The notes under the pieces were generated by a model. That model had not been told where the DNA came from and ran no database searches. It worked only from the letters and a program-made list of their open reading frames with translations. From assembly GCA_007694185.1 (NCBI GenBank), contig RECD01000151.1, positions 1 through 43,650 of the forward strand: a DNA stretch of 43,650 nucleotides. The letters run 5' to 3'. The position numbers and the translations under genes are program-made. The DNA comes from Planctomycetaceae bacterium. GTDB taxonomy: Bacteria; Planctomycetota; Planctomycetia; Pirellulales; Pirellulaceae. This document shows, piece after piece, positions 9,036 through 38,156 of the stretch (position 1 is the stretch's first letter; each line of letters starts with the position of its first letter).

Positions 9036-9554
9036 ATGAACGCATCGACTTGGACCGAGAACGCCCTCAAGTTCATCGAGGATATCCGAGATTGTGAGGA
9101 TGCGGACGATCGGTTCGACCTGATCATGGAGCTGGGTGACACCCTAGAGCCCCTGCCGGAGGAACTCAAGACGGAAAGCAACCGGGTCCAAGGCTGCACG
9201 GCGAGCGTTTGGTTGGTCCCGGAATTCATCCCAGGGGCCCCGCGGCGGGTGCGATTTCGCACCGACAGCGATTCGACCATGGTCCGAGGCTTAGCGGCTT
9301 TGCTGATTTCGCAGGTCAACGACAAGCCTTGCGACGAGGTCGCGGCACTCGATTTTCGCCGCTTGGCCGACGAATTTTCGCTGCACCAGTACCTCAGTCC
9401 TTCGCGTAGCAACGGCTTGTTCGCGATGAGCAAGCGGTTGGGTCGACTGGCGGCGATCGGGATCCAAGGCGACCCAAGCGGCGACGAGTCGGCCCCGATT
9501 TCGCCGACTGACACGTCGCAAACGGGCGGGTCCGCGTCGGCGGAACCCACCTGA
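9036..9554 (+). CDS. sufE: SufE-family sulfur acceptor for Fe-S cluster assembly
   Basis: SufE accepts persulfide sulfur from the cysteine desulfurase SufS and stimulates it, feeding the SUF scaffold. The 172-residue protein has the family core: an acidic N-terminal helix (DADDRFDLIMELG), the PLPEE motif, and the acceptor cysteine Cys54 in RVQGCTASVW, equivalent to Cys51 of the E. coli protein. A GLAALLI segment and the YLSPSRSNG region complete the fold, and the length matches plus a 25-residue acidic, Ser/Thr-rich tail. No other suf gene is in the window, so it stands apart from any SufBCDS operon. It is divergent from pyk and convergent with the sugar-acid operon (23 bases between stop codons). 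Confidence 0.93.
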   Translation: MNASTWTENALKFIEDIRDCEDADDRFDLIMELGDTLEPLPEELKTESNRVQGCTASVWLVPEFIPGAPRRVRFRTDSDSTMVRGLAALLISQVNDKPCDEVAALDFRRLADEFSLHQYLSPSRSNGLFAMSKRLGRLAAIGIQGDPSGDESAPISPTDTSQTGGSASAEPT

Positions 9555-9577: not shown

Positions 9578-10825
9578 TCAAAGGAACAGCGGTCGGATGT
9601 GTCGCTCGAGCAAATTCTCGGTGACGTTCCGCGAAATCGCCGCACGGCAATCGACGAGCGCGTCGGTGTAGCGAGTCCCCAATTGGGCGGCCACTTTGTA
9701 TCCGACGTGCAGCAGTTGCCGGAGATCGGGATTGAAGTCCGGGACATCCGGCTGGTGGCGGAGGGCGGCGACATACCGCGGTCCGGTCCAGAGACGCACG
9801 TCGGACGGGTCCGGCAGCCGATCCGGGTCGATGTCGATCACCGCCGCGTAAGGTTCGCACAAGGCTTGTCGCTTCTGGTGAGCCTGAGCGTAAATCTCCT
9901 TTGCCAATTCCAAGCCGGGGCCACCCGCTTCGGCGAGTCCGATCAGCTCTTCGAGCCAGGTGGTGCCGGCGGTCTTGAGATGCAGCCCCGCGCCGGTTTC
10001 GCGGATCGCGTCGCGGATGGCGGGATAGATCGAAAACTTGTCGCTGCCGGAATGGACGCTCAATTTCAGTCCCGCGGGCAGCCCGAACCTCTGGATCGCG
10101 TGTTCGATCACCGCCAGGTCATCGCGGAATTCGCGTCCAAACTTGGCGACGTCGCCGACGTAATCGACCCCCTTGTTGAAGCGGCCGGTGAACTTGGGGG
10201 CGATCGTTTGGACGGGAATCCCTTGGTCCGCCAAGGCGGCGAGGATGATCAGCAGTTCCGGCGGGCTTTGCGGGGCGTCGGTTTCGTCCATCGAAACCTC
10301 GGTCACGAAAGGGACATTCCCTTTCGCTTTGAGGATGTGCCGGTAGGTATCACCCGCCAGGATCGCGGCGGCGAGGTACTTTTCGGCGGTCGCCCGCAAC
10401 AACGGTTCGTCGATCGACAGAGGTTCGGCGAGTCCGGGTAAGTTGAGCGTGCCGATCAGTGATGCCTGGGAGGTGACGAACGCGTCGAGGGCATCGGGCG
10501 GCGCGGGTTTGCCGATCGCGTCGGCGACGTCGAGCGTGAAGAAGTCGCTGCAATCCATGAACGGCCCGACGGTGGCGATACCGATGTGGTCGGCGTCGAC
10601 GTGAAATCCGTGTTGCCAGCGGGCGGCGTCGACAGCCGCTTGGGCCGCAGCCAGCACCGTGGGAGGTTGGGAGCCGACGGTCAGGTGTTCACGATTCGAC
10701 TTGTTCCAGACCGGTACCAATTCGCAGCCCAGTTGGCGGGCTTGGATGAAGGCGTCGAGCTGCGCGGCGGCTTGATGGGCGAATCGGTCGCCGACGCCGA
10801 AGGAAAATTTTTCGAGCGGTTTCAT
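9578..10825 (-). CDS. uxaE: Tagaturonate/fructuronate epimerase (UxaE family)
   Basis: UxaE enzymes interconvert D-tagaturonate and D-fructuronate by C3 epimerisation, bypassing the reductive route of classic hexuronate catabolism. The 415-residue protein matches that family through its N-terminal FSFGVGDRFAHQA, the VDADHIG segment, EVSMDETD, the APKFTGRFNKGVDYVG stretch and the KLSVHSGSDKFSIYP motif with a conserved His. The TIM-barrel-like order of acidic and His motifs is intact. ATG 10825 is chosen; a TTG at 10837, directly after the upstream stop, is the alternative. It is the third gene of a minus-strand operon behind a zinc dehydrogenase and an aldo/keto reductase. The family is secure; the exact substrate is inferred from the family and the neighbours. 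Confidence 0.85.
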   Translation of the reverse strand: MKPLEKFSFGVGDRFAHQAAAQLDAFIQARQLGCELVPVWNKSNREHLTVGSQPPTVLAAAQAAVDAARWQHGFHVDADHIGIATVGPFMDCSDFFTLDVADAIGKPAPPDALDAFVTSQASLIGTLNLPGLAEPLSIDEPLLRATAEKYLAAAILAGDTYRHILKAKGNVPFVTEVSMDETDAPQSPPELLIILAALADQGIPVQTIAPKFTGRFNKGVDYVGDVAKFGREFRDDLAVIEHAIQRFGLPAGLKLSVHSGSDKFSIYPAIRDAIRETGAGLHLKTAGTTWLEELIGLAEAGGPGLELAKEIYAQAHQKRQALCEPYAAVIDIDPDRLPDPSDVRLWTGPRYVAALRHQPDVPDFNPDLRQLLHVGYKVAAQLGTRYTDALVDCRAAISRNVTENLLERHIRPLFL

Positions 10826-10837
10826 GAGCTTGAGCAA

Positions 10838-11869
10838 TCAGAGGCAGGTCAGGTCGACAACGGCCTTGATCACGCCGGTGTCGGGACGGGTGTAGGTGGG
10901 AAACTTCGCGATCAGATCCGCAGCAGAAACGCGGTCGGTGATCCAGGGGTCGGTCCGGATCGCACCGTACCGGATCAGTTCGATGATGCGGGTGAAGTCG
11001 CCCGGCAACGCGTTGCGGCTCGCCCGGATCGTCATTTCCGGTTTGTGCATCGCCACGTGGGAAAACGACAACGCCTGGTTCGTGATGCCGACGTATACCA
11101 ACGTCCCGGTCTGGGCGACGTGCTGGAGGGCAGCCGACATCGAGTGCTGATTGCCGGTGGCGTCGATCACGACGGGGAAGCGGTCCCCGCCGGTGATCCG
11201 TTCGGTCTCTGCCATCGCCGCCGCGTCGTCCCGGTAGGCGATCGTGTCGTCGACGCCATAGTTTGCTCGACAAAAATCGAGTCGCGAGGGAACCAGGTCC
11301 ATCACGGTGATCTTGGCGCCGGTCAACTTGACGAACTCGAGAACCGCCAACCCGATCGGGCCGGCGCCGATGAGCAAAACCTGGTCGTCGGCCTGCGGGG
11401 CGCCGCGGTCACAAGCATGGCAACCGATCGCTAGGGTTTCGACCAAGGCCAGTTGTTCCCAGGTCAGATCGTTTCCCGGATGCAGCTTGTCGGCGCGAAA
11501 CAAGAAGCGTTCGCACAGGCCGCCGTCGCACATCACCCCGAAGGTCTGGTTGAACTGGCAGCAGTTCGTATGGCCACGTCGGCAGGCGTAGCAACGGCCG
11601 CAATTCAGGTACGGTTCGACCGCGCAGCGATCGCCGGGGCGAAGGTGAGAAACGTCCGGGCCGACCTCCAAGACTTCCACCCCCAATTCGTGACCGATGA
11701 TCCGAGGGTAATCGAAGAAGGGCATCTTGCCGAGATAGCCGCCCACGTCGGTACCGCAGATACCCATCCTGTGTGGTCGCACGAGGACTTGGCCCGGTCC
11801 CGGAGATCCCGGGTCGGGCAAGGTCGTGGCGACGAACGATTCGGGTTTGTCGAGGATGATGGCGTGCAT
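10838..11869 (-). CDS. Zinc-dependent medium-chain alcohol dehydrogenase, probable L-galactonate 5-dehydrogenase
   Basis: A 343-residue zinc alcohol dehydrogenase of the threonine/sorbitol dehydrogenase type. Catalytic zinc ligands are visible in GICGTD and in GHELGVE, the structural-zinc cysteines in CGRCYACRRGHTNC, and the NAD-binding Rossmann motif in LLIGAGPIGLAV (about residues 165-176). E. coli LgoD, which oxidises L-galactonate to D-tagaturonate, belongs to this family. The next gene, beginning 12 bases after this stop, is a tagaturonate epimerase, so the same reaction is proposed here. The family level is certain. The substrate is inferred from operon context; L-gulonate or L-idonate type substrates are possible. 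It lies 30 bases downstream of the aldo/keto reductase. Confidence 0.88.
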   Translation of the reverse strand: MHAIILDKPESFVATTLPDPGSPGPGQVLVRPHRMGICGTDVGGYLGKMPFFDYPRIIGHELGVEVLEVGPDVSHLRPGDRCAVEPYLNCGRCYACRRGHTNCCQFNQTFGVMCDGGLCERFLFRADKLHPGNDLTWEQLALVETLAIGCHACDRGAPQADDQVLLIGAGPIGLAVLEFVKLTGAKITVMDLVPSRLDFCRANYGVDDTIAYRDDAAAMAETERITGGDRFPVVIDATGNQHSMSAALQHVAQTGTLVYVGITNQALSFSHVAMHKPEMTIRASRNALPGDFTRIIELIRYGAIRTDPWITDRVSAADLIAKFPTYTRPDTGVIKAVVDLTCL

Positions 11870-11899
11870 GAGCAGTACGACGAGAGGGTGAGGGTTGCG

Positions 11900-12838
11900 T
11901 CAGGCGACATCATTGTTTTCGGGTCTGCCCTCGCAGTAGACCCAGTTGTGGATCGGCTGAAGGATTTGCAGGACCTCGTCCAGCAACCGTTGGTCGAGCG
12001 GTTCGTCGATCCAGCTCAACCATTCGCTGACCCGTTGCGGGTTGGCGCTGCCGGTGACGCAGGACGCGAAGCCGGGATGGGCGATCGAATACTGCAGGGC
12101 CAACTTGGCGATGTCGGAACCACGGTTGCGACAATGTTCGGCCGCCGCCTTCGCCACTTCACGAACCTCGGGCGTCGCCTTGTGCCAAGGGGGCAGCGGC
12201 GAATCGGACAACAGGCGGGCGGAAAATGGCGCCGCGTTGATCACGCCGACATGCTTTTCCTGGCAGAGCGGCAGCAGGTCGAGCGCCATGTCGTTCTGCA
12301 GCGTGTAGTGATTGTAGGTCAGGATCACATCGATCTCGGTCCGCTGTAGGATTTGGCGGAACATCTTGATCGGATAGCCGCTGACGCCGATGTAACGAAC
12401 CTTGCCCGCCGCGACCTGACGACGAAGGGCCGGCAGCGTTTCGTCGACGATCTGATCCAGATCGACGAACTCGATGTCGTGGCAAAACACGATGTCGACG
12501 TAATCGATTCGCATCCGTTCCAGCGAAATGTCGATACTCTCCTCGACGCGCCGGGCGGAGAAATCGAAGTGCTGGGGCGCGTAGCGTCCCAGCTTGGTGC
12601 TGACAAAGTAGCTTTCCCGAGGTAGCTCGGGGAGAATTCGGCCGAGCAACAATTCGCTCATCCCACGACCGTAGTAGGCCGCGGTGTCGATGTAATTCAC
12701 GCCGCCGTCCAGGGCGACGCGAACGCTTCGCAGGGCATCATTCAGATCGACCTGGCGGAACTCTTGGCCGATCGAAGAGGCCCCAAACCCGAGTACCGAC
12801 AACTCGATGTCGGTCCCGGCAAGTGGTCGGAGTTGCAT
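11900..12838 (-). CDS. Aldo/keto reductase, L-galactose dehydrogenase-like
   Basis: A 312-residue NAD(P)-dependent aldo/keto reductase. The catalytic tetrad is in place: Asp and Tyr in NYIDTAAYYGRGMSE (about residues 48-62), Lys in STKLGRY, His in CHDIEF. The GKVRYIGVSGYP, ILTYNHY and GVINAAPFSARLL segments, together with CHDIEF and LDQIVDETLPAL, closely follow plant L-galactose dehydrogenase, which oxidises L-galactose at C1 to L-galactono-1,4-lactone. L-fucose dehydrogenases belong to the same branch and are the main alternative. It is the first gene of the minus-strand operon with the zinc dehydrogenase and UxaE, so transcription order matches the proposed reaction order. A TACAAT -10 candidate lies 67 bases upstream. 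The family is certain; L-galactose as substrate is a well-supported inference. Confidence 0.88.
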   Translation of the reverse strand: MQLRPLAGTDIELSVLGFGASSIGQEFRQVDLNDALRSVRVALDGGVNYIDTAAYYGRGMSELLLGRILPELPRESYFVSTKLGRYAPQHFDFSARRVEESIDISLERMRIDYVDIVFCHDIEFVDLDQIVDETLPALRRQVAAGKVRYIGVSGYPIKMFRQILQRTEIDVILTYNHYTLQNDMALDLLPLCQEKHVGVINAAPFSARLLSDSPLPPWHKATPEVREVAKAAAEHCRNRGSDIAKLALQYSIAHPGFASCVTGSANPQRVSEWLSWIDEPLDQRLLDEVLQILQPIHNWVYCEGRPENNDVA

Positions 12839-13086: not shown

Positions 13087-13896
13087 ATGATTGGCCCTCC
13101 GACCGATCGGGCGACGGAACCGCAGGCGGCCTCGCGGGTCGCGGCAATCCTGGTTGCGGCGGGGCGAGGTCGGCGATTCGGTGGGACCGATAACAAGGTT
13201 TTGCAGTTGCTGGAAGGCCAACCGATCTGGTTGCATTCGATCCGGGCGCTGAGGCGTTGTCCGCGGATCGGCCCGGTCGTGATGGTGATCCATCCGGACG
13301 ATCGCGGCGCCGTCCAAGACGAGGCGGAAGGGTTGGGTGTCCGATTGGTTGATGGAGGGCGAGAGCGGGTCGACAGCGTCCTGGCGGGGCTGAAGGAACT
13401 CGAAGGGATGGGGCACCCGGCGGAATCGCCCGACGTTTCCGCTGAGGATGTCGGTTCGGTAGCGGACGCTGCTCAGGCCGGGCAACGCTGGGTAGCGATC
13501 CATGACGCGGCGCGGCCGCTGGTGCCGGCCGATGACGTGGACCGTGTGATCGAGCGAGCGATCCTGACCGGGGCGGCGATTTTGGCGACGCCGGTGCGGG
13601 GCACGATCAAGCTCCGCGGGGATGCCGGTGAAGTCACCACGGTCGACCGAAAACGGTTGTGGGAGGCGTTGACCCCCCAAGTCTTTCGAGAAGATATTCT
13701 GCGGACGGCCTATCGTCGGTGGCGGGGGCGGCCGGTCACCGATGACGCCGAGTTGGTCGAACGGAGCGGGTTTTCGATCAGCCTGGTTCCCGGATCGGCC
13801 GAAAACTTGAAGATTACCCATGCCGAGGACTTGATCCTGGCCGAAGCGATCATGGCGAAGCGTCAACGGGGGCGAGAGCCACAGCCGGACGAATGA
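13087..13896 (+). CDS. ispD: 2-C-methyl-D-erythritol 4-phosphate cytidylyltransferase
   Basis: IspD joins MEP and CTP to give CDP-methylerythritol in the non-mevalonate isoprenoid pathway. Visible motifs are the glycine-rich CTP loop AAGRGRRFGG with the following NKVL (about residues 22-36), the conserved GGRERVDSVLAGL segment, IHDAARPLV with its Asp and Arg (about 138-146), TPVRGTIK, and the C-terminal TDDAELVE and NLKITHAEDL. The 269-residue length exceeds the usual 225-235. The excess is an N-terminal extension of about 14 residues and an acidic and alanine-rich insertion (about residues 109-133, between LKEL and WVAIHD), which would project from the surface. A GGAG lies 12 bases upstream of the ATG. 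It ends 27 bases before tyrS and is probably co-transcribed with it. Confidence 0.94.
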   Translation: MIGPPTDRATEPQAASRVAAILVAAGRGRRFGGTDNKVLQLLEGQPIWLHSIRALRRCPRIGPVVMVIHPDDRGAVQDEAEGLGVRLVDGGRERVDSVLAGLKELEGMGHPAESPDVSAEDVGSVADAAQAGQRWVAIHDAARPLVPADDVDRVIERAILTGAAILATPVRGTIKLRGDAGEVTTVDRKRLWEALTPQVFREDILRTAYRRWRGRPVTDDAELVERSGFSISLVPGSAENLKITHAEDLILAEAIMAKRQRGREPQPDE

Positions 13897-15237: not shown

Positions 15238-16074
15238 CTAAACCACGCTATCGGCGACCGTCTCGCCACGGGGCCGGAAGTGGAAGTTGCGACTGTTTTT
15301 GAAGAACTCGATCGGGTTCTCGTAGACGATTCGGCGGATCAGCGATTCGTCATGACCGCGGCGGCGGAGTTCGAAAATGAGATCGGGGATCGCCGTCGGC
15401 TTGCTCGGCCCCCAGTCGCCCGCCGAATTGGCCATCAGCCGTTCGGGGCCATACTTTTCGATCATGTCGGCGGCACGTTCCGGGGTACACTTGGTCACCG
15501 GATAGAGCGTCATGCCGGCCCAATAGCCGCGATCGAGCACCTCGGCGATCGTGTGTTCCTCCACGTGGTCGACGAGGATTCGCGAGCGTTGCAAGCGGGA
15601 ATCGCCATCGAGCATGTCGAGGATCATCCGGGTTCCCTGATACTTGTCTTCCAGATGGGGCGTGTGGATCAGGATCGGCTGGTCGTACTGGGCGGCCAGG
15701 TCGAGATGTTCCAGGAAGACGATCGCTTCGTTGCGGGTATTTTTATTTAGGCCGATTTCGCCGATCCCGAGCACGCCGGGGGCGTCGAGGAACTCGGGGA
15801 TCATCGCGATCACTTCGCGAGACAACGAGACGTTTTCCGCCTCCTTCGCGTTGATGCACAACCAGCAGAAGTGCTGGATCCCGTAGGCGGCCGCCCGTTT
15901 CGGTTCGACCTCGGTCAATTGGCGGAAGTAATCGCGGAAGCCGTCCGCGCTGCCGCGGTCGAACCCGGCCCAGAAAGCCGGTTCGCTGATCGCCACGCAC
16001 CCCATGCGGGCCAGGGTGGCGTAGTCGTCGGTGATTCGCGACACCATGTGAATGTGCGGGTCGATGTAATCCAT
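15238..16074 (-). CDS. TatD-family metal-dependent hydrolase, EboB-like
   Basis: A 278-residue amidohydrolase-fold protein of the TatD type. The metal ligands can be followed: HIH near residue 7-9, Glu in GIGEIGLNKNT, His in LIHTPHLED, His in LVDHVEEH, and Asp in NSAGDWGPS. The text differs from nuclease-type TatD in keeping CVAISEPAFWAGFDRG and QHFCWLCINAKEAE. That form I associate with the TatD-like member (EboB) of ebo clusters, which act in envelope transport of lipid-linked or secondary metabolites in bacteria and algae. No other ebo gene (the UbiA-like, dehydroquinate-synthase-like or xylose-isomerase-like members) is in the window. A small conserved-looking gene lies 57 bases upstream on the same strand. 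The fold is certain; the EboB label is inference. Confidence 0.88.
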   Translation of the reverse strand: MDYIDPHIHMVSRITDDYATLARMGCVAISEPAFWAGFDRGSADGFRDYFRQLTEVEPKRAAAYGIQHFCWLCINAKEAENVSLSREVIAMIPEFLDAPGVLGIGEIGLNKNTRNEAIVFLEHLDLAAQYDQPILIHTPHLEDKYQGTRMILDMLDGDSRLQRSRILVDHVEEHTIAEVLDRGYWAGMTLYPVTKCTPERAADMIEKYGPERLMANSAGDWGPSKPTAIPDLIFELRRRGHDESLIRRIVYENPIEFFKNSRNFHFRPRGETVADSVV

Positions 16075-32396: not shown

Positions 32397-32902
32397 CGTC
32401 AACCGGTCTTGGGTCGGAGGGTGAGGGATCAACGGCGGGGAACGACTCGCGGCGAGCCGGCCACTTGCGGAACGAAACGTCGCACCCATCCGACGGGGGC
32501 TTCGACCCTCGATTTTAACGCCTGGTGGGCCGCAGGGGGGCGGGCTGACAATCAAAAGGAACTCGGCGGCCGTCCGCCGGGACGCACCGACCACCCCTGC
32601 GGCGAATGCGAACTGCTTGTCCGTTGTCGCCTATGATCACATGCGTTCATGAGCCCGGTTTGTATCTGGGTTCCGCAGTCGATATGCTACACGGGCGAAT
32701 CAAACGCCTCTGTTGTCTGAGCCTTCCATGCGGTCGGATCAGGGCGGACGGCCTGCTGCCCGCCCTGCTGCCCGCTTCGTCCAGACGTGCCGTTTCCCAA
32801 AGTCGGCAGAAAACGCCGGACTCGGTTGGTCGGCGATGGTTTTTCAGCGTTGGCCGCACCCGATCTGCGTCCGTCCACTCTCCTCAGCCTGTTGAGATTT
32901 CT
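32397..32902. other. Divergent intergenic region upstream of the 32903 operon
   Basis: About 500 bases between the DapA-like gene and the large membrane protein gene. The plus frame of the latter is open back to 32606, but the added 99 residues are Arg/Cys/Pro-rich, with no signal peptide, so I treat them as non-coding. A TAAAAT (32512-32517, minus) may serve the DapA-like gene, and a TATGAT (32632-32637, plus) may serve the operon; both lack good -35 boxes. Confidence 0.45.
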
Positions 32903-35437
32903 GTGCCGCTGAACGAACCTCGCAGCTCGTGGACCGGTCGGTTCGGAGTCTGGGCTTGGCTGTTGGCTTCGGCCGTGGCAGCGGGAGCCGCGATTGCGGA
33001 CGAAGCGGTCACGGTGACCTCGATCGGGTCCTCGATCGGCGTTCGCTCCTTTTCCGCCGGCCGCTGGGGGTTGGTCCGGGTCGCTGTACTGAATGAGTCG
33101 CCGGAACCGGCCATGATCCGCGCCGTGGTCAATTTGAAGGACACTCCCGACCTGCGGTTCGGTCGTGACGTCTGGGTTCCCGCTCGGTCGACTCGCACGA
33201 CTTCGATCCCGATCCATGTTGGCAGCGAGTTGCGTGACGAACGTTCAGTCGAAATCGTCGGGCGGGTGCTCTTGGGCGCCGAGATGTCAGCCAACGACAG
33301 CAGTTCCAACCTGGGGATCGTCTTGGGTGAAGACGCCACGGTGCTGATCCAAGACGATCCGCTTGTGGAACCGGAAGGCGATCTCGACCCGCGAGAGAAG
33401 GACCCGGCCTATGAGGTGGTGCTGGCGATGCGGGCATCACGCAATTTCTCCCGAACCCTGATCCGGCCCAGCGAGCGATTGTTGCCCGCCACGGTCCAGG
33501 GTTGGGATGCGGTGAGGCATGTGGTCGTCGCCGGTGACCGGTTGACCAGCGAAGCGGGGGCGGCCGCGTCGCTGCGGCAGTGGGTCAACGAAGGGGGGCG
33601 GATGTGGGTCCAACTCAACCGCACCGATCCGGAGACGTTGGCGGTGCTGTTCGGCTCGACCCTCGGCCTAGAGGTGATCGATCGCGTCCCGCTGAACCAA
33701 TTCGAAGTCAAGGATGCCAAGGCGGTCGACCAGCCGACGGTGGCCGCGATCGATGCCGAAGAGCCGATCGAGCTGATTCGGGCATGGGTCGAAGGCGGCG
33801 AGGTCGCGTATCGGGTCGACGGTTGGCCGGCGGCGGTGCAGTTCCCCTACGGCAGGGGTTCGGTGATCGTAACGCTGCTGGACGCCCACGGCTGGATGCG
33901 GCCTCGTGACCAGCGGGACCCAGCGGAATACGAACCGATGACTTACACCGATTTCATGCCGCTCGAACCGCTCGATGAACTGGCAGACCGGATGTACCAA
34001 CCGCGAGAAGAGGCGGAGTTGGATCGGGATGTGTTCGCGAGCTACGTCGCCGATCGGATCGGATACCGGATCCCCGGTCGTGGGGCCGTGCTGGGGATAC
34101 TCGGCCTCTTCTGCCTGTCGATCCTGGTGGCCGGAACGCTGCTGGTGGGCCGGCAGCAGTTGGAGTATTTGCCCGCGGTGGCGGTGGTCGCCTGCCTGCT
34201 GGCGGCGGCGGTTTTGGTCAGCTTGGGGCGATCCAGTCGGGGAGACGTGCCGGCGACGTTGGCGGAGTTGCGAGTCGTGTCGGTCAATCCGCAGACCGGC
34301 TCGGCTTCGGGTACCGGGTCGTTCGCGATTTATCAGCCGGACCAGATGCGGGCTGACTTCAGCGGCCGTGGGCTGCGGATCGATCCTCAGATGCCCGACT
34401 TGGGTGGCCAGATCCGGCAATGGATTTGGAGTGACGCGGAGCGATGGCGGTGGGATGAGACACGATTGCCGCCCGGCGTTCGGGTGATGTGGGGCGAATC
34501 CGACGAGGTGTTGGGGGGGGCAGTCCGCGCCCAGGCGAGCCTCGGCCCCGAGGGTTTCGAAGGGGTCGTGACGCTCGAAGGCATCACGCGTCGGTCAGCG
34601 GGTGAACCGGGCGAACCGGCACCACCTCGAATCGAAGACGCGTTGGTGCTGTTCCCGCGGTCTCCTCCCCTGGCTACGACCCTGACCGACGACGGCCGGT
34701 TCTTGTCCGGCGAAGGGGACATGCTCGCCACCGGGCAATACACCTCCGCGACGTTGTTGACGGACGAGCAGCGTCGGCGCGCCGCCGTATTGGAATCGTG
34801 GTTCGCGGGGAGGCGAGATTCGGTCAACGCGACGGGCCCCGTGGTGTTGGCTTGGGTCGAAAATGGGCGAACGGTATTCGATTCCCAGCGGCCGCTCCAG
34901 CGGACGGAAACGTCGCTGTTGACGATCCCGCTGACGCTGGTTCGAACCGCTCCCGATACTCTGGTGTCGATCCCGGCGTCTGCGGTGGCCCCACGGGCGA
35001 TCCTGGGCGAGTTGGGGCAATCGTCGGCGTTCGACAATCAGACGGCGAGCTGGAATCATCCCAATACCCGGCCGACGGAAACGCGATTGCGGTTCCAGTT
35101 GCCACCATCCGTCCTGCCGATCCGGTTGGACATGGTCCGTTTGACGCTCGATTGTCACCTGCCGTCGCGGCCGCTCGAGGTTTTCGTGGTCCGAGGCAAG
35201 GAGCGGCTGTCGGTGCTCCGCCAGATCAACGCGTCCGGGACGATCCGGGTCGAGGTCACCGATCCGGCTTGGTTGACCACCGACCCGCTGGGCGGTGTGA
35301 TCCTGGACATCGCGGTCGGTGACTTACGTTCCGATGTGGATGAAGTGACGATCGCCAACAGCGGCTGGAGCATTCGTTCCTCGCGATTGACGGCCGCCGG
35401 TAAAACGCTCCCTGAGGAGGGGGAAAGCGACCAATGA
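32903..35437 (+). CDS. Large exported membrane protein, possible GldG-like ABC accessory subunit
   Basis: An 844-residue protein of unknown function. GTG 32903 is chosen because it gives a clean signal peptide (RFGVWAWLLASAVAAGAAIADE). The first 380 residues after it are outside the membrane and include a beta-sandwich-like region, then a Rossmann-like part (VRHVVVAGDRL, LRQWVNEGGRMWVQLN) reminiscent of the GATase-like fold in GldG-type ABC accessory proteins. Two hydrophobic spans follow (about residues 395-416 and 424-442, GILGLFCLSILVAGTLLVG and AVAVVACLLAAAVLVSLG). A 400-residue C-terminal domain then probably lies again on the outer face. Its stop overlaps the ATG of an ABC ATPase (ATGA), so it belongs to the transporter operon. 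The accessory role is inference from position and fold hints only. Confidence 0.8.
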   Translation: MPLNEPRSSWTGRFGVWAWLLASAVAAGAAIADEAVTVTSIGSSIGVRSFSAGRWGLVRVAVLNESPEPAMIRAVVNLKDTPDLRFGRDVWVPARSTRTTSIPIHVGSELRDERSVEIVGRVLLGAEMSANDSSSNLGIVLGEDATVLIQDDPLVEPEGDLDPREKDPAYEVVLAMRASRNFSRTLIRPSERLLPATVQGWDAVRHVVVAGDRLTSEAGAAASLRQWVNEGGRMWVQLNRTDPETLAVLFGSTLGLEVIDRVPLNQFEVKDAKAVDQPTVAAIDAEEPIELIRAWVEGGEVAYRVDGWPAAVQFPYGRGSVIVTLLDAHGWMRPRDQRDPAEYEPMTYTDFMPLEPLDELADRMYQPREEAELDRDVFASYVADRIGYRIPGRGAVLGILGLFCLSILVAGTLLVGRQQLEYLPAVAVVACLLAAAVLVSLGRSSRGDVPATLAELRVVSVNPQTGSASGTGSFAIYQPDQMRADFSGRGLRIDPQMPDLGGQIRQWIWSDAERWRWDETRLPPGVRVMWGESDEVLGGAVRAQASLGPEGFEGVVTLEGITRRSAGEPGEPAPPRIEDALVLFPRSPPLATTLTDDGRFLSGEGDMLATGQYTSATLLTDEQRRRAAVLESWFAGRRDSVNATGPVVLAWVENGRTVFDSQRPLQRTETSLLTIPLTLVRTAPDTLVSIPASAVAPRAILGELGQSSAFDNQTASWNHPNTRPTETRLRFQLPPSVLPIRLDMVRLTLDCHLPSRPLEVFVVRGKERLSVLRQINASGTIRVEVTDPAWLTTDPLGGVILDIAVGDLRSDVDEVTIANSGWSIRSSRLTAAGKTLPEEGESDQ

Positions 35438-36501
35438 ACCGCCCAGAAATAATCGGCCAATCCCCGAACGGTGGCCAATCTCCGAGCCATGTCGCGTCTC
35501 AGAAGCCTCCCGTGAAGGCGGCCGAGGAACCGGTCGTGGAGGTTCGCAATCTCGGCAAACGCTACGGCGAGTTTGTCGCCTTGGAGGATCTGAGCCTGAC
35601 GGTGATGCGCGGGCAGATCCTCGGGTTCATCGGTCCCAACGGGGCCGGCAAGACGACGACGATCAAGATCTTGGTGGGGTTGGCCAGACCCACTTCGGGC
35701 GTCGCCCGGATCGCGGGGATCGATTGCGCCCGCGATTCGGCGAGGATCAAGCGGGTCGTCGGTTACATGCCGGACGGATTCGGGTCGTACGACAACATGC
35801 GGGTCCGCGAGTACCTCGATTTCTTCGGCGCGGCCTTCGGCATCCCTCGCCGGCAGCGGGTGCCTCGGATCGCCGAGGTATTGGAGATCACCAACAGCAC
35901 CTACATGCAGGACCGTTACGTCGAAAGCCTCAGTCACGGCATGCAGCAGCGGGTCGGGATTGCCCGGACGTTGTTGCACGACCCCGAGGTGCTGATCTTT
36001 GACGAGCCCGCGAACGGCCTTGACCCTCAGGCCCGGATCGAGATGCGGGAATTGCTGCTGCGACTGGCCGCGTCGGGCAAGACGTTGATCGTGACGAGTC
36101 ACATCCTGCCGGAATTGTCGCGGATTTGTGATCAGGTCGCCATCATCACTCAGGGCCGCTTGCGGGCGGCAGGTTCGCTAGAAGAGATCATGCGGAACCT
36201 GAATCAGCGGCGGACGATCGAGATCCAGCTGCCGGCCGGCCAAGAATTGGCGGTCGCTGAAGCCGCGGTTCGCGACCGCTTGGGCGATGACGGCAGCTTA
36301 GCAGTCTCGCCGGCGGAAGGGATGTTGCGGTTCGAGACGACCCAAACGGACGACCAGTTGAGCGACGTCTTGTCGTCACTGATTTCCGCCGGGGTCCGGA
36401 TCTGTCAATTCCGCGAACTTCAAACCGATCTGGAGGACGCCTTCATGTCCGTGCTGCAGCAGCAGCGGGCGGCCGAATCGCTCTCGCCGGAGAAAGCTTG
36501 A
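35434..36501 (+). CDS. ABC transporter ATP-binding protein, GldA-like
   Basis: The 355-residue ATPase of the second ABC-2 system. A 35-residue hydrophilic lead precedes the ABC core. Walker A is GPNGAGKTTT (near residue 69), the Q-loop lies around MPDGFGSYDNMRV, the signature is LSHGMQQRVG (near 166), Walker B is LIFDEPANGLDP (near 188), and the switch histidine is in VTSHILPELSRICD. The C-terminal extension of about 100 residues is typical of GldA/CcmA-type exporter ATPases. The start codon overlaps the stop of the large membrane protein gene (ATGA). The stop overlaps the start of the permease by one base. Three-way coupling suggests a fixed stoichiometry. Confidence 0.93.
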   Translation: MNRPEIIGQSPNGGQSPSHVASQKPPVKAAEEPVVEVRNLGKRYGEFVALEDLSLTVMRGQILGFIGPNGAGKTTTIKILVGLARPTSGVARIAGIDCARDSARIKRVVGYMPDGFGSYDNMRVREYLDFFGAAFGIPRRQRVPRIAEVLEITNSTYMQDRYVESLSHGMQQRVGIARTLLHDPEVLIFDEPANGLDPQARIEMRELLLRLAASGKTLIVTSHILPELSRICDQVAIITQGRLRAAGSLEEIMRNLNQRRTIEIQLPAGQELAVAEAAVRDRLGDDGSLAVSPAEGMLRFETTQTDDQLSDVLSSLISAGVRICQFRELQTDLEDAFMSVLQQQRAAESLSPEKA

Positions 36502-38156
36502 TGCTGGCGATCTTGCGGCGTGAACTGATCGCCATTTTGCGAACCCGAAAAGCGTTTGTGCTGCAACTGGGCGTCGCGGCCTGTTTCGTCGGGCTGATCG
36601 CGCTGCGATGGCCCACCGACGGACGCGCCGACTTGTCGGGAACGAGGTCAGGCGAAGTGTTTCGGCTGTTTTCCTACGCGTTGTTGGCGGCGATCGCGTT
36701 GCTCGCGCCGGTCTTTCCGGCGACCTCCATCGTGACGGAACGACGACGGGGGACCCTGGCGCTGTTGCTCAATTCGCCGCTGAGCCCGGCGACGATTTAC
36801 GCCGGCAAGTGGCTGGGGGTGCTGGGGTTCGTCGGGTTGTTGTTGGGATTGACCATGCCGGCCGCCGCGGCCTGCTATGCGATGGGCGGCATCTCGTTAA
36901 GCGGTCAACTCGTCGCGGTCTACGGCCTGCTGGTCTTGGTCGCCGTCCAATACACCTGCTTGGGGTTGCTGGTCAGCAGTTTGGCGAACAGCGCCGACGG
37001 CGCGGTGCGGGTGACTTACGGCTGCGTTCTGGCACTCGCGGTGTTGACGTTGGCGCCCTATTTTTTCCTTCAGCAATCCGCGGGTTGGCTGTCCGAGGTG
37101 GCCGCTTGGCTCCGCTGTGTTTCGCCGATCCCGGCGATGATGGAAATCGTCGGTCAGGGTGACATCGGTTCCGAAATCGCCTGGCAAGGCCCGTCTGCGG
37201 TAGCCCGTTTCTTGATCTTGGCCCCGATCCTTTCGGCCGTTTTCGCGGGGATCACGATCTCGCGGTTGCGCTATCATCTGCTCGACCGTTCACGAAGCCA
37301 GGGGCTGATCACCGACAACCGGGGGTTGGGTGCCCGGACGGCGCGGCGGGCGTTCTTCATCATCGACCCGAGGCGGCGGAGCCGGAACATCGGCGACTGG
37401 GTGAATCCGGTGATGGCCAAGGAGTTTCGAACGCGCCGGTTCGGACGTTCGCACTGGATGCTGAGGCTGATCGGCATCTGCGCGATCCTGTCGTTGTTCC
37501 TCGCGTTCACCGTCACCACCGGGACGGTCCGTTGGGAACTCGAGGCCGTGGGCGGTCCCTTGGTGCTGCTGCAGGTGGGGTTGATGGTCGTGTTCATGCC
37601 GAGCTTGGCAGCCGGATTGATCAGCAGCGAGCAGGAGAACCACGCTTGGCCCTTGCTGCGGACCGCGCCGTTGTCGGGCGGCCAGATCGTCCGCGGAAAG
37701 TTACTCAGTTCCCTCTGGACGATGCTGTTGATGTTGGGGGCGACCCTGCCCGGATACGTCGTCATGATCTACATCCAACCGACACTTTGGCTGCAGGTCG
37801 TGCGGGCTTTCGTCTGTCTGCTGTTTGCCGGTTTGGTGGCGCTGATGATCAGCGCGATGGTCGGATCATGGTTCCGGCGGACGGCGGCGGCGACGACCGC
37901 GGCCTACGTCGCGGTACTCGGGCTGTTCGGTGGCACGCTCCTGATCTGGCTTGCCCGAGACGCCCCGTTCGGATTCCGAACGGTCGAGAATGCGTTGAAA
38001 TGGAACCCGATGGCCGCCGCGTTGTCGGTCTTCAACCTGCCCGGGTTTCGCAACTACCAGTTGGTCCCAATCAGCTGGTGGATCTCGGCCGCGATCGTGA
38101 TCGTTTGCTTTCTGGTGATGCGATTTCGTGTTCAAGCTTTGACGAGGCCCGAATGA
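36501..38156 (+). CDS. ABC-2 permease with two fused modules
   Basis: A 551-residue integral membrane protein. Each half starts with the same kind of amphipathic element before its first span: LAILRRELIAILRTRKAFVL at the N-terminus and NPVMAKEFRTRRFGRSHWML near residue 303. Each half contains about six membrane spans, so one polypeptide appears to carry both ABC-2 half-transporters. Spans include FSYALLAAIALLAPVFPATSI, VLGFVGLLLGLTMPAAAACY, LVLVAVQYTCLGLLVSSLA in the first half and LIGICAILSLFLAFTV, LVLLQVGLMVVFMPSLAAG, VCLLFAGLVALMISAMVG in the second. The ATG at 36501 shares a base with the ATPase stop (TGATG); a TTG at 36498 is the alternative. Its stop overlaps the HEAT-repeat gene start (ATGA). 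Substrate unknown. Confidence 0.9.
   Translation: MLAILRRELIAILRTRKAFVLQLGVAACFVGLIALRWPTDGRADLSGTRSGEVFRLFSYALLAAIALLAPVFPATSIVTERRRGTLALLLNSPLSPATIYAGKWLGVLGFVGLLLGLTMPAAAACYAMGGISLSGQLVAVYGLLVLVAVQYTCLGLLVSSLANSADGAVRVTYGCVLALAVLTLAPYFFLQQSAGWLSEVAAWLRCVSPIPAMMEIVGQGDIGSEIAWQGPSAVARFLILAPILSAVFAGITISRLRYHLLDRSRSQGLITDNRGLGARTARRAFFIIDPRRRSRNIGDWVNPVMAKEFRTRRFGRSHWMLRLIGICAILSLFLAFTVTTGTVRWELEAVGGPLVLLQVGLMVVFMPSLAAGLISSEQENHAWPLLRTAPLSGGQIVRGKLLSSLWTMLLMLGATLPGYVVMIYIQPTLWLQVVRAFVCLLFAGLVALMISAMVGSWFRRTAAATTAAYVAVLGLFGGTLLIWLARDAPFGFRTVENALKWNPMAAALSVFNLPGFRNYQLVPISWWISAAIVIVCFLVMRFRVQALTRPE

Follow-up and report, generated by a model that had tools for sequence, protein, structure and literature searches.

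Three adjacent genes of a Planctomycetaceae bacterium (GenBank assembly GCA_007694185.1, genome G000 of our set) very probably encode the core steps of a pathway for the oxidation of L-galactose, which joins central metabolism via an epimerase of the UxaE family. The genes lie in a 43,650 bp stretch of contig RECD01000151.1, called the window in what follows, and specify in the order of transcription an aldo/keto reductase (AKR), a zinc-dependent dehydrogenase, and a compact form of UxaE. The AKR would oxidise L-galactose to the lactone, which a lactonase, probably encoded elsewhere in the same genome (contig C257), would open to L-galactonate; the zinc dehydrogenase would oxidise C5 of L-galactonate to give D-tagaturonate, and the compact UxaE would convert this to D-fructuronate in a retro-aldol/aldol reaction that depends on a metal. 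A D-mannonate oxidoreductase of the short-chain dehydrogenase/reductase (SDR) family and a 2-keto-3-deoxygluconate (KDG) kinase, both encoded on contig C61, would act before and after a dehydration step, respectively. The predicted series from L-galactose through L-galactonate and D-tagaturonate to D-fructuronate had been put forward in a preliminary description of the window, and it is supported by the closest relatives of the enzymes, by the operons of related bacteria, which add a mutarotase, a lactonase, a mannonate oxidoreductase, and a KDG kinase, and by the exchange of UxaE for the tagaturonate reductase UxaB. The UxaE ending appears to be common in planctomycetes. A coherent function is offered for the operon and its counterparts, in a phylum with many sugar genes that have yet to be characterised.

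Relatives and catalytic residues of the three enzymes

The first enzyme matches the AKR family PF00248 with 179 bits (cut-off 24). Its best matches in the PDB are five distinct L-galactose dehydrogenase sequences, scoring from 298 down to 230 bits, while the next protein follows at 103 bits. The AKR family has a catalytic tetrad of Asp, Tyr, Lys, and His, which we take to be represented by D51, Y56, K82, and H120; all four residues are conserved without exception across an alignment of 12 sequences. Judging from these relatives the AKR very probably oxidises L-galactose to the lactone. The second enzyme is a zinc-dependent member of the medium-chain dehydrogenase/reductase (MDR) family (PF08240/PF00107); aligned with E. 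coli LgoD over 340 positions, it is 36% identical. Its best NCBIfam model gives 163 bits, well short of the cut-off of 376, and its substrate is for this reason inferred rather than read from family membership.

The third enzyme matches the Pfam family PF16257 with 163 bits against a gathering cut-off of 27. Its predicted model (predicted local distance difference test score, pLDDT, 94.5) superposes on UxaE of Cohnella (6il9) with a Z score of 41.8 and a root-mean-square deviation of 2.4 over 378 residues, and on the enzyme of a Thermotogota bacterium (9lhu) with a Z score of 42.7 over 379 residues (Foldseek E = 3e-22), at a sequence identity to the solved UxaE enzymes of 24–26%. A profile built from 25 aligned UxaE sequences likewise matched 9lhu, a solved tagaturonate/fructuronate epimerase, with 302 bits. 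The catalytic residues given for Cohnella UxaE are Glu126 and Asp159 (PMC11194214). We equate these with E50 and D83 (numbering of the 419-residue reading frame) from alignments which assume a one-residue offset in the chain numbering; both residues are invariant in 25 of 25 aligned UxaE sequences, in the compact as well as the canonical subfamily. The two subfamilies are just 26–31% identical to each other. With the solved enzymes of Cohnella and the Thermotogota bacterium (6il9, 6ilb, and 9lhu) the window protein shares the fold, that of a metal-dependent TIM barrel, and the catalytic Glu and Asp, but it is devoid of their N-terminal stretch of approximately 85–100 residues, the alignments beginning at chain residue 85–112. 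The predicted model thus indicates that the compact UxaE keeps the fold and the catalytic residues of the family. UxaE as such is already known from the hexuronate network of Thermotoga, as the title of a reference in PMC5507952 indicates.

Exchange of UxaE for UxaB and pathway clusters in relatives

The distribution of these genes was analyzed across 60 genomes, namely G000 and 59 relatives; the Fisher tests given for this set ignore kinship and therefore overstate significance. UxaE-like genes were found in 33 genomes and the AKR in 30, UxaE being present in 27 of the 30 genomes with the AKR and in 6 of the 30 without it (p = 5.6e-8). The three AKR genomes that remain (G002, G029, and G048) carry instead a strong match to the tagaturonate reductase UxaB, so that no AKR genome has both enzymes and none has neither (p = 3.3e-11 for the association of the AKR with either enzyme). 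The strong UxaB matches have E values of 3e-68 to 4e-258, and there are none in genomes without the AKR. Weak matches in five further genomes (G010, G015, G017, G032, and G059; E = 1e-12 to 1e-20), three of which carry the AKR together with UxaE, were left uncounted and are taken as presumed paralogues. When a planctomycete UxaB-like protein was used as the query, no match was obtained in G000 at E ≤ 1e-10. In G029 (L123) the UxaB gene sits between the dehydrogenase and a gene resembling the epimerase IolO, and in G048 it adjoins the IolO-like gene, the AKR of that genome adjoining a gene of the altronate/galactarate dehydratase family. Neither UxaB-like protein reaches the cut-off of the tagaturonate reductase model (359 bits), that of G029 scoring 345 bits and that of G048 316.

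In a scan of named genomes the best 80 of at least 547 confirmed AKR loci, partly contigs of the same 60 genomes, were considered: within the stretches covered 22 contain UxaE, six contain UxaB, and none contains both. Named strains with the AKR include members of Rhodopirellula, Stieleria, and Thalassoglobus. Three Mariniblastus loci (L221, L224, and L242) combine the AKR, the dehydrogenase, a gene of the altronate/galactarate dehydratase family, UxaB, 2-keto-3-deoxy-6-phosphogluconate (KDPG) aldolase, and KDG kinase beside a sulfatase-type gene, with the IolO-like gene also present in L221 and L242; the gene families were verified in L221. By gene content these clusters would represent a nearly complete L-galactose pathway of the UxaB branch. 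D-Tagaturonate is the common substrate of UxaE and UxaB. The exchange of the one for the other therefore suggests that D-tagaturonate is the likely product of the dehydrogenase and L-galactonate its likely substrate, with two non-homologous enzymes interchanging at what is likely the branch point of the pathway.

Wider loci around UxaE genes were collected (35, or 36 with the region of the window itself; several are short contigs and all were kept). The 22 compact-UxaE loci contain the AKR in 12 cases, the dehydrogenase in 14, the IolO-like gene in 12, a FucU gene in nine, a lactonase in eight, the SDR in seven, and the KDG kinase in three; for the 14 canonical-UxaE loci the corresponding numbers are eight, nine, seven, eight, eight, three, and zero. 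Two divergent UxaE subfamilies thus share one gene neighbourhood. The fullest operons (L045 and L051) have eight genes on one strand, in the order UxaE, AKR, dehydrogenase, IolO-like, FucU, lactonase, SDR, and KDG kinase. That the three genes of the window are kept together elsewhere is borne out by 11 compact-UxaE loci, the window included, which contain all of them. The gene order was said to equal the chemical order, and this is true of the window, L031, and L036, but not in general, as in eight of the 11 loci (L039, L041, L042, L045, and L048–L051) UxaE lies upstream of the AKR and the dehydrogenase. G001, which belongs to the same genus as G000, has the dehydrogenase, UxaE, IolO-like, and FucU genes side by side (L032). 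Within the stretches covered, the best 80 AKR loci contain the dehydrogenase in 32 cases, the IolO-like gene in 35, FucU in 22, and the lactonase in 13. Ten AKR loci (L186–L191, L198, L199, L212, and L217, from Rhodopirellula, Stieleria, and others) show the AKR immediately followed by the IolO-like gene, with neither dehydrogenase nor UxaE in the stretch covered.

The linked SDR exceeds the NCBIfam cut-off for D-mannonate oxidoreductase (346–359 bits against 281), and the linked kinase is closest to a solved KDG kinase, reaching no NCBIfam cut-off. The linked lactonase is an amidohydrolase with its best score against L-fucono-1,5-lactonase (260–281 bits, cut-off 400), and the linked mutarotase belongs to the RbsD/FucU family. 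The lactonase and the lower steps had been noted as missing from the window. On other contigs G000 has a candidate lactonase (42% identical; C257), the IolO-like gene (L106:9407-10228) and the FucU gene adjacent to each other on C45, and the SDR, over its cut-off, adjacent to the KDG kinase on C61. The SDR and the KDG kinase form a recurrent pair (L147:8090-10082, L151, L152, L155, and L160), which is also found in a genome devoid of the AKR (G010, L160). No mannonate dehydratase was found among the six proteins scanned near such pairs. A ManD-like gene of G000 (contig C110) was considered for this step and set aside, as its neighbour is aldolase-like and its sequence, as we read it, suggests a dehydratase for some other acid sugar.

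A link to red-algal galactans had been suggested from the presence of L-galactose in these polymers. For the source organism this was not borne out, since no glycoside hydrolase or sulfatase was found among the 19 window proteins scanned, a subset of the open reading frames of the window. In other planctomycetes a sulfatase-type family was found within 6 kb of cluster genes in seven of 30 multi-gene loci, two of these seven having been verified against Pfam. In L253 (5911-7263) and L256 (5912-7258) a sulfatase-type gene is found inside the cluster, between the dehydrogenase and the IolO-like gene.

Alternative substrates and known routes

Several findings weigh against the L-galactose pathway as proposed and are brought together here. 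The NCBIfam cut-offs are not reached by the AKR, the dehydrogenase, the IolO-like protein, the lactonase, FucU, the KDG kinase, or the UxaB-like proteins. Six UxaE genomes are without the AKR, and among the best 80 AKR loci 48 have no dehydrogenase, and 52 neither UxaE nor UxaB, within the stretch covered. The UxaB of G002 is divergent (38% identical), with no other pathway gene in the surrounding 20 kb. The SDR is an inconstant partner, being over its cut-off in 17 of the 30 genomes with the AKR (15 of the 27 with UxaE) and in six of the 30 without. For the dehydration step no mannonate dehydratase was recognised in G000: UxuA occurs in 16 of the 60 genomes and is absent from G000, any UxuA match is found in just seven of the 27 genomes with both AKR and UxaE, and the model taken for ManD was over its cut-off in none of the 60. 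Genes of the altronate dehydratase family, present in 45 of the 60 genomes including G000, do not discriminate, and their use to mark the UxaB branch was rejected. In G000 a second AKR, belonging to a different subfamily, comes after the lactonase (L107:8296-10222), with a similar pair in L111 and L113; this second AKR is perhaps a dehydrogenase of the L-fucose type, and the lactonase may serve another sugar, or two.

The IolO-like gene also belongs among these points, as it is unneeded for L-galactose and yet matches UxaE in the tightness of its linkage to the AKR, being present in 28 of the 30 genomes with the AKR and two of the 30 without it (Fisher p = 3.2e-12). Among solved proteins its product is closest to Thermotoga TM0416, with active-site motifs that look conserved in the alignment. 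L-Glucose is, to our knowledge, absent from nature. This raises the question of why a 5-keto-L-gluconate 4-epimerase, which is key to L-glucose use in Luteolibacter, should be tied to L-galactose genes in bacteria unlikely to meet L-glucose. In Luteolibacter LG18 the corresponding LguG is described as needed only for L-glucose, with lguG adjoining an rbsD gene (PMC12632266), an arrangement similar to the adjacent IolO-like and FucU genes of G000. From gene linkage, L-gluconate or L-glucose may thus be a second substrate of the planctomycete pathway. A wider version of this idea, which we put forward tentatively and regard as somewhat less probable than its contrary, is that a pathway for both L-galactose and L-gluconate (L-glucose) is widespread among Planctomycetota, its entries meeting at D-tagaturonate via an IolO/LguG-like 4-epimerase and its UxaE and UxaB exits being interchangeable; the idea stays a proposal because the IolO-like proteins score only 212–223 bits against the IolO model (212 for that of G000), below the cut-off of 300. 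If true, L-gluconate or 5-keto-L-gluconate should have a source in nature, and none is named in the literature consulted.

Oxidation of L-fucose, in which L-fuconolactone made by the AKR would be opened by the lactonase to L-fuconate and the subsequent enzymes would act on 6-deoxy acids, would agree with the best score of the linked lactonase and with an RbsD/FucU mutarotase, and it is nevertheless improbable. The linked partners are tagaturonate enzymes, and some clusters hold KDG kinase and KDPG aldolase, the chemistry of which needs the 6-hydroxyl that L-fucose is devoid of. Luteolibacter LguA is described as inactive on L-fucose (PMC12632266), and the values reported for plant L-galactose dehydrogenase are 56 mM for L-fucose against 0.1–0.4 mM for L-galactose. 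An entry from D-galacturonate is similarly hard to credit. Here the AKR would reduce D-galacturonate to L-galactonate and the dehydrogenase would reoxidise this to D-tagaturonate, a redox isomerisation replacing UxaC; reductases yielding L-galactonate are on record (PMC9192788) and the remaining pathway would be identical, but L-galactose dehydrogenases are the nearest relatives of the AKR, and a mutarotase and a lactonase as linked partners fit the oxidation of an aldose to a lactone.

Inositol catabolism of the Thermotoga type, with the dehydrogenase as IolM, the linked epimerase as IolO, and entry via 5-keto-L-gluconate, has a very small chance of being correct. In its favour are an IolM score of 144 bits for the dehydrogenase (cut-off 450) and the likeness of the linked epimerase to IolO, but the route was rejected since the model for the ring hydrolase IolN was over its cut-off in none of the 60 genomes; furthermore, it does not account for the kinship of the AKR, and it leaves lactonase and mutarotase without a role. 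The remaining possibility, that L-gulose is used and the dehydrogenase yields D-fructuronate directly from L-gulonate, is equally remote, as UxaE would be superfluous and its exchange for UxaB senseless, even though E. coli LgoD also accepts L-gulonate (from the title of a reference in PMC5507952) and plant L-galactose dehydrogenase is reported to have a weaker activity on L-gulose.

For the preferred L-galactose pathway, the steps from L-galactose to D-tagaturonate are already known in other bacteria, and it is the UxaE exit which is the variant part. The Bacteroides vulgatus cluster Bvu0219-0220-0222, said to have been described by Hobbs et al. in 2014, reportedly encodes an L-galactose dehydrogenase, an amidohydrolase-type lactonase, and an L-galactonate dehydrogenase giving D-tagaturonate; the cluster would share both dehydrogenase steps with the operon described here, and the amidohydrolase type of lactonase with its relatives, but is not known to include UxaE, and the lactonase gene lies outside our window. 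In Luteolibacter LG18 the lgu set comprises LguA, LguD, LguG, LguC, LguB, LguH, and LguE; the kcat/Km of LguA is given as 40-fold higher for L-galactose than for L-glucose, and the route through LguA and LguD to D-tagaturonate is backed by gene disruptions (PMC12632266). By description its probable counterparts of the planctomycete genes are an L-galactose dehydrogenase grouped with those of plants and Bacteroides, an L-galactonate dehydrogenase, and an IolO-type epimerase, but it differs in that D-tagaturonate is converted by LguC to D-altronate, which LguB dehydrates, instead of by UxaE to D-fructuronate. The full enzyme set at high identity is ascribed in that account to only some Luteolibacter species (PMC12632266, 2025). 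The L-galactonate routes through LgoD, UxaB, and UxaA, known in E. coli and from Halomonas loci carrying lgoD, uxaA, and uxaB (PMC5507952), are comparable by the 36% identity of the window's dehydrogenase to E. coli LgoD; in the accounts available they differ in beginning at L-galactonate and using UxaB (or UxaF) and UxaA. The novelty assigned to the operon in the preliminary description thus appears to stand for its exact composition, as no description of a UxaE-linked L-galactose operon was found in searches of the open-licence PMC literature, and does not extend to the conversion of L-galactose to D-tagaturonate.

Layout of the locus and the rest of the window

The block of three genes, its families, and its two short gaps were confirmed by the open reading frames, by Pfam, and by comparison with PDB entries and LgoD (Table 1). 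Upstream of the block the IspD gene (13087-13896) is oriented in the opposite direction, and the SufE gene (9036-9554) is convergent with it, which suggests that the three genes are likely transcribed together as one unit. Two starts are available for uxaE, the ATG at 10825 (415 residues) and a TTG at 10837 (419 residues); in the same-genus relatives L031 and L032 UxaE likewise begins with MKP, in agreement with the ATG.

Table 1. Coordinates of the three genes and their intergenic gaps in the window
Feature	Position	Strand	Details
AKR, L-galactose dehydrogenase type (predicted: L-galactose to L-galactonolactone)	11900-12838	minus	312 aa, PF00248
Intergenic gap, AKR/dehydrogenase	11870-11899	minus	30 bases
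Zinc-dependent MDR dehydrogenase, LgoD/LguD-like (predicted: L-galactonate to D-tagaturonate)	10838-11869	minus	343 aa
Intergenic gap, dehydrogenase/uxaE ATG	10826-10837	minus	12 bases
Compact UxaE-family epimerase (predicted: D-tagaturonate to D-fructuronate)	9578-10825	minus	415 aa from ATG, PF16257

Several of the 19 proteins scanned against Pfam, the three enzymes included, are housekeeping proteins (pyruvate kinase, DNA polymerase III alpha, IspD, and SufE), others are methyltransferases and parts of ABC transporters, and three have no Pfam match. A TatD-like metal hydrolase gene upstream of the block (15238-16074, minus strand; PF01026, 35 bits), which we assume may be of the ebo type, was considered as the lactonase and rejected, since it matches TatD and not a lactonase family. 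Elsewhere in the window an open reading frame of 943 residues with no Pfam match (32606-35437) immediately precedes two ABC genes, one for an ATPase (35434-36501) and one for a membrane protein of the ABC-2 type (36498-38156).

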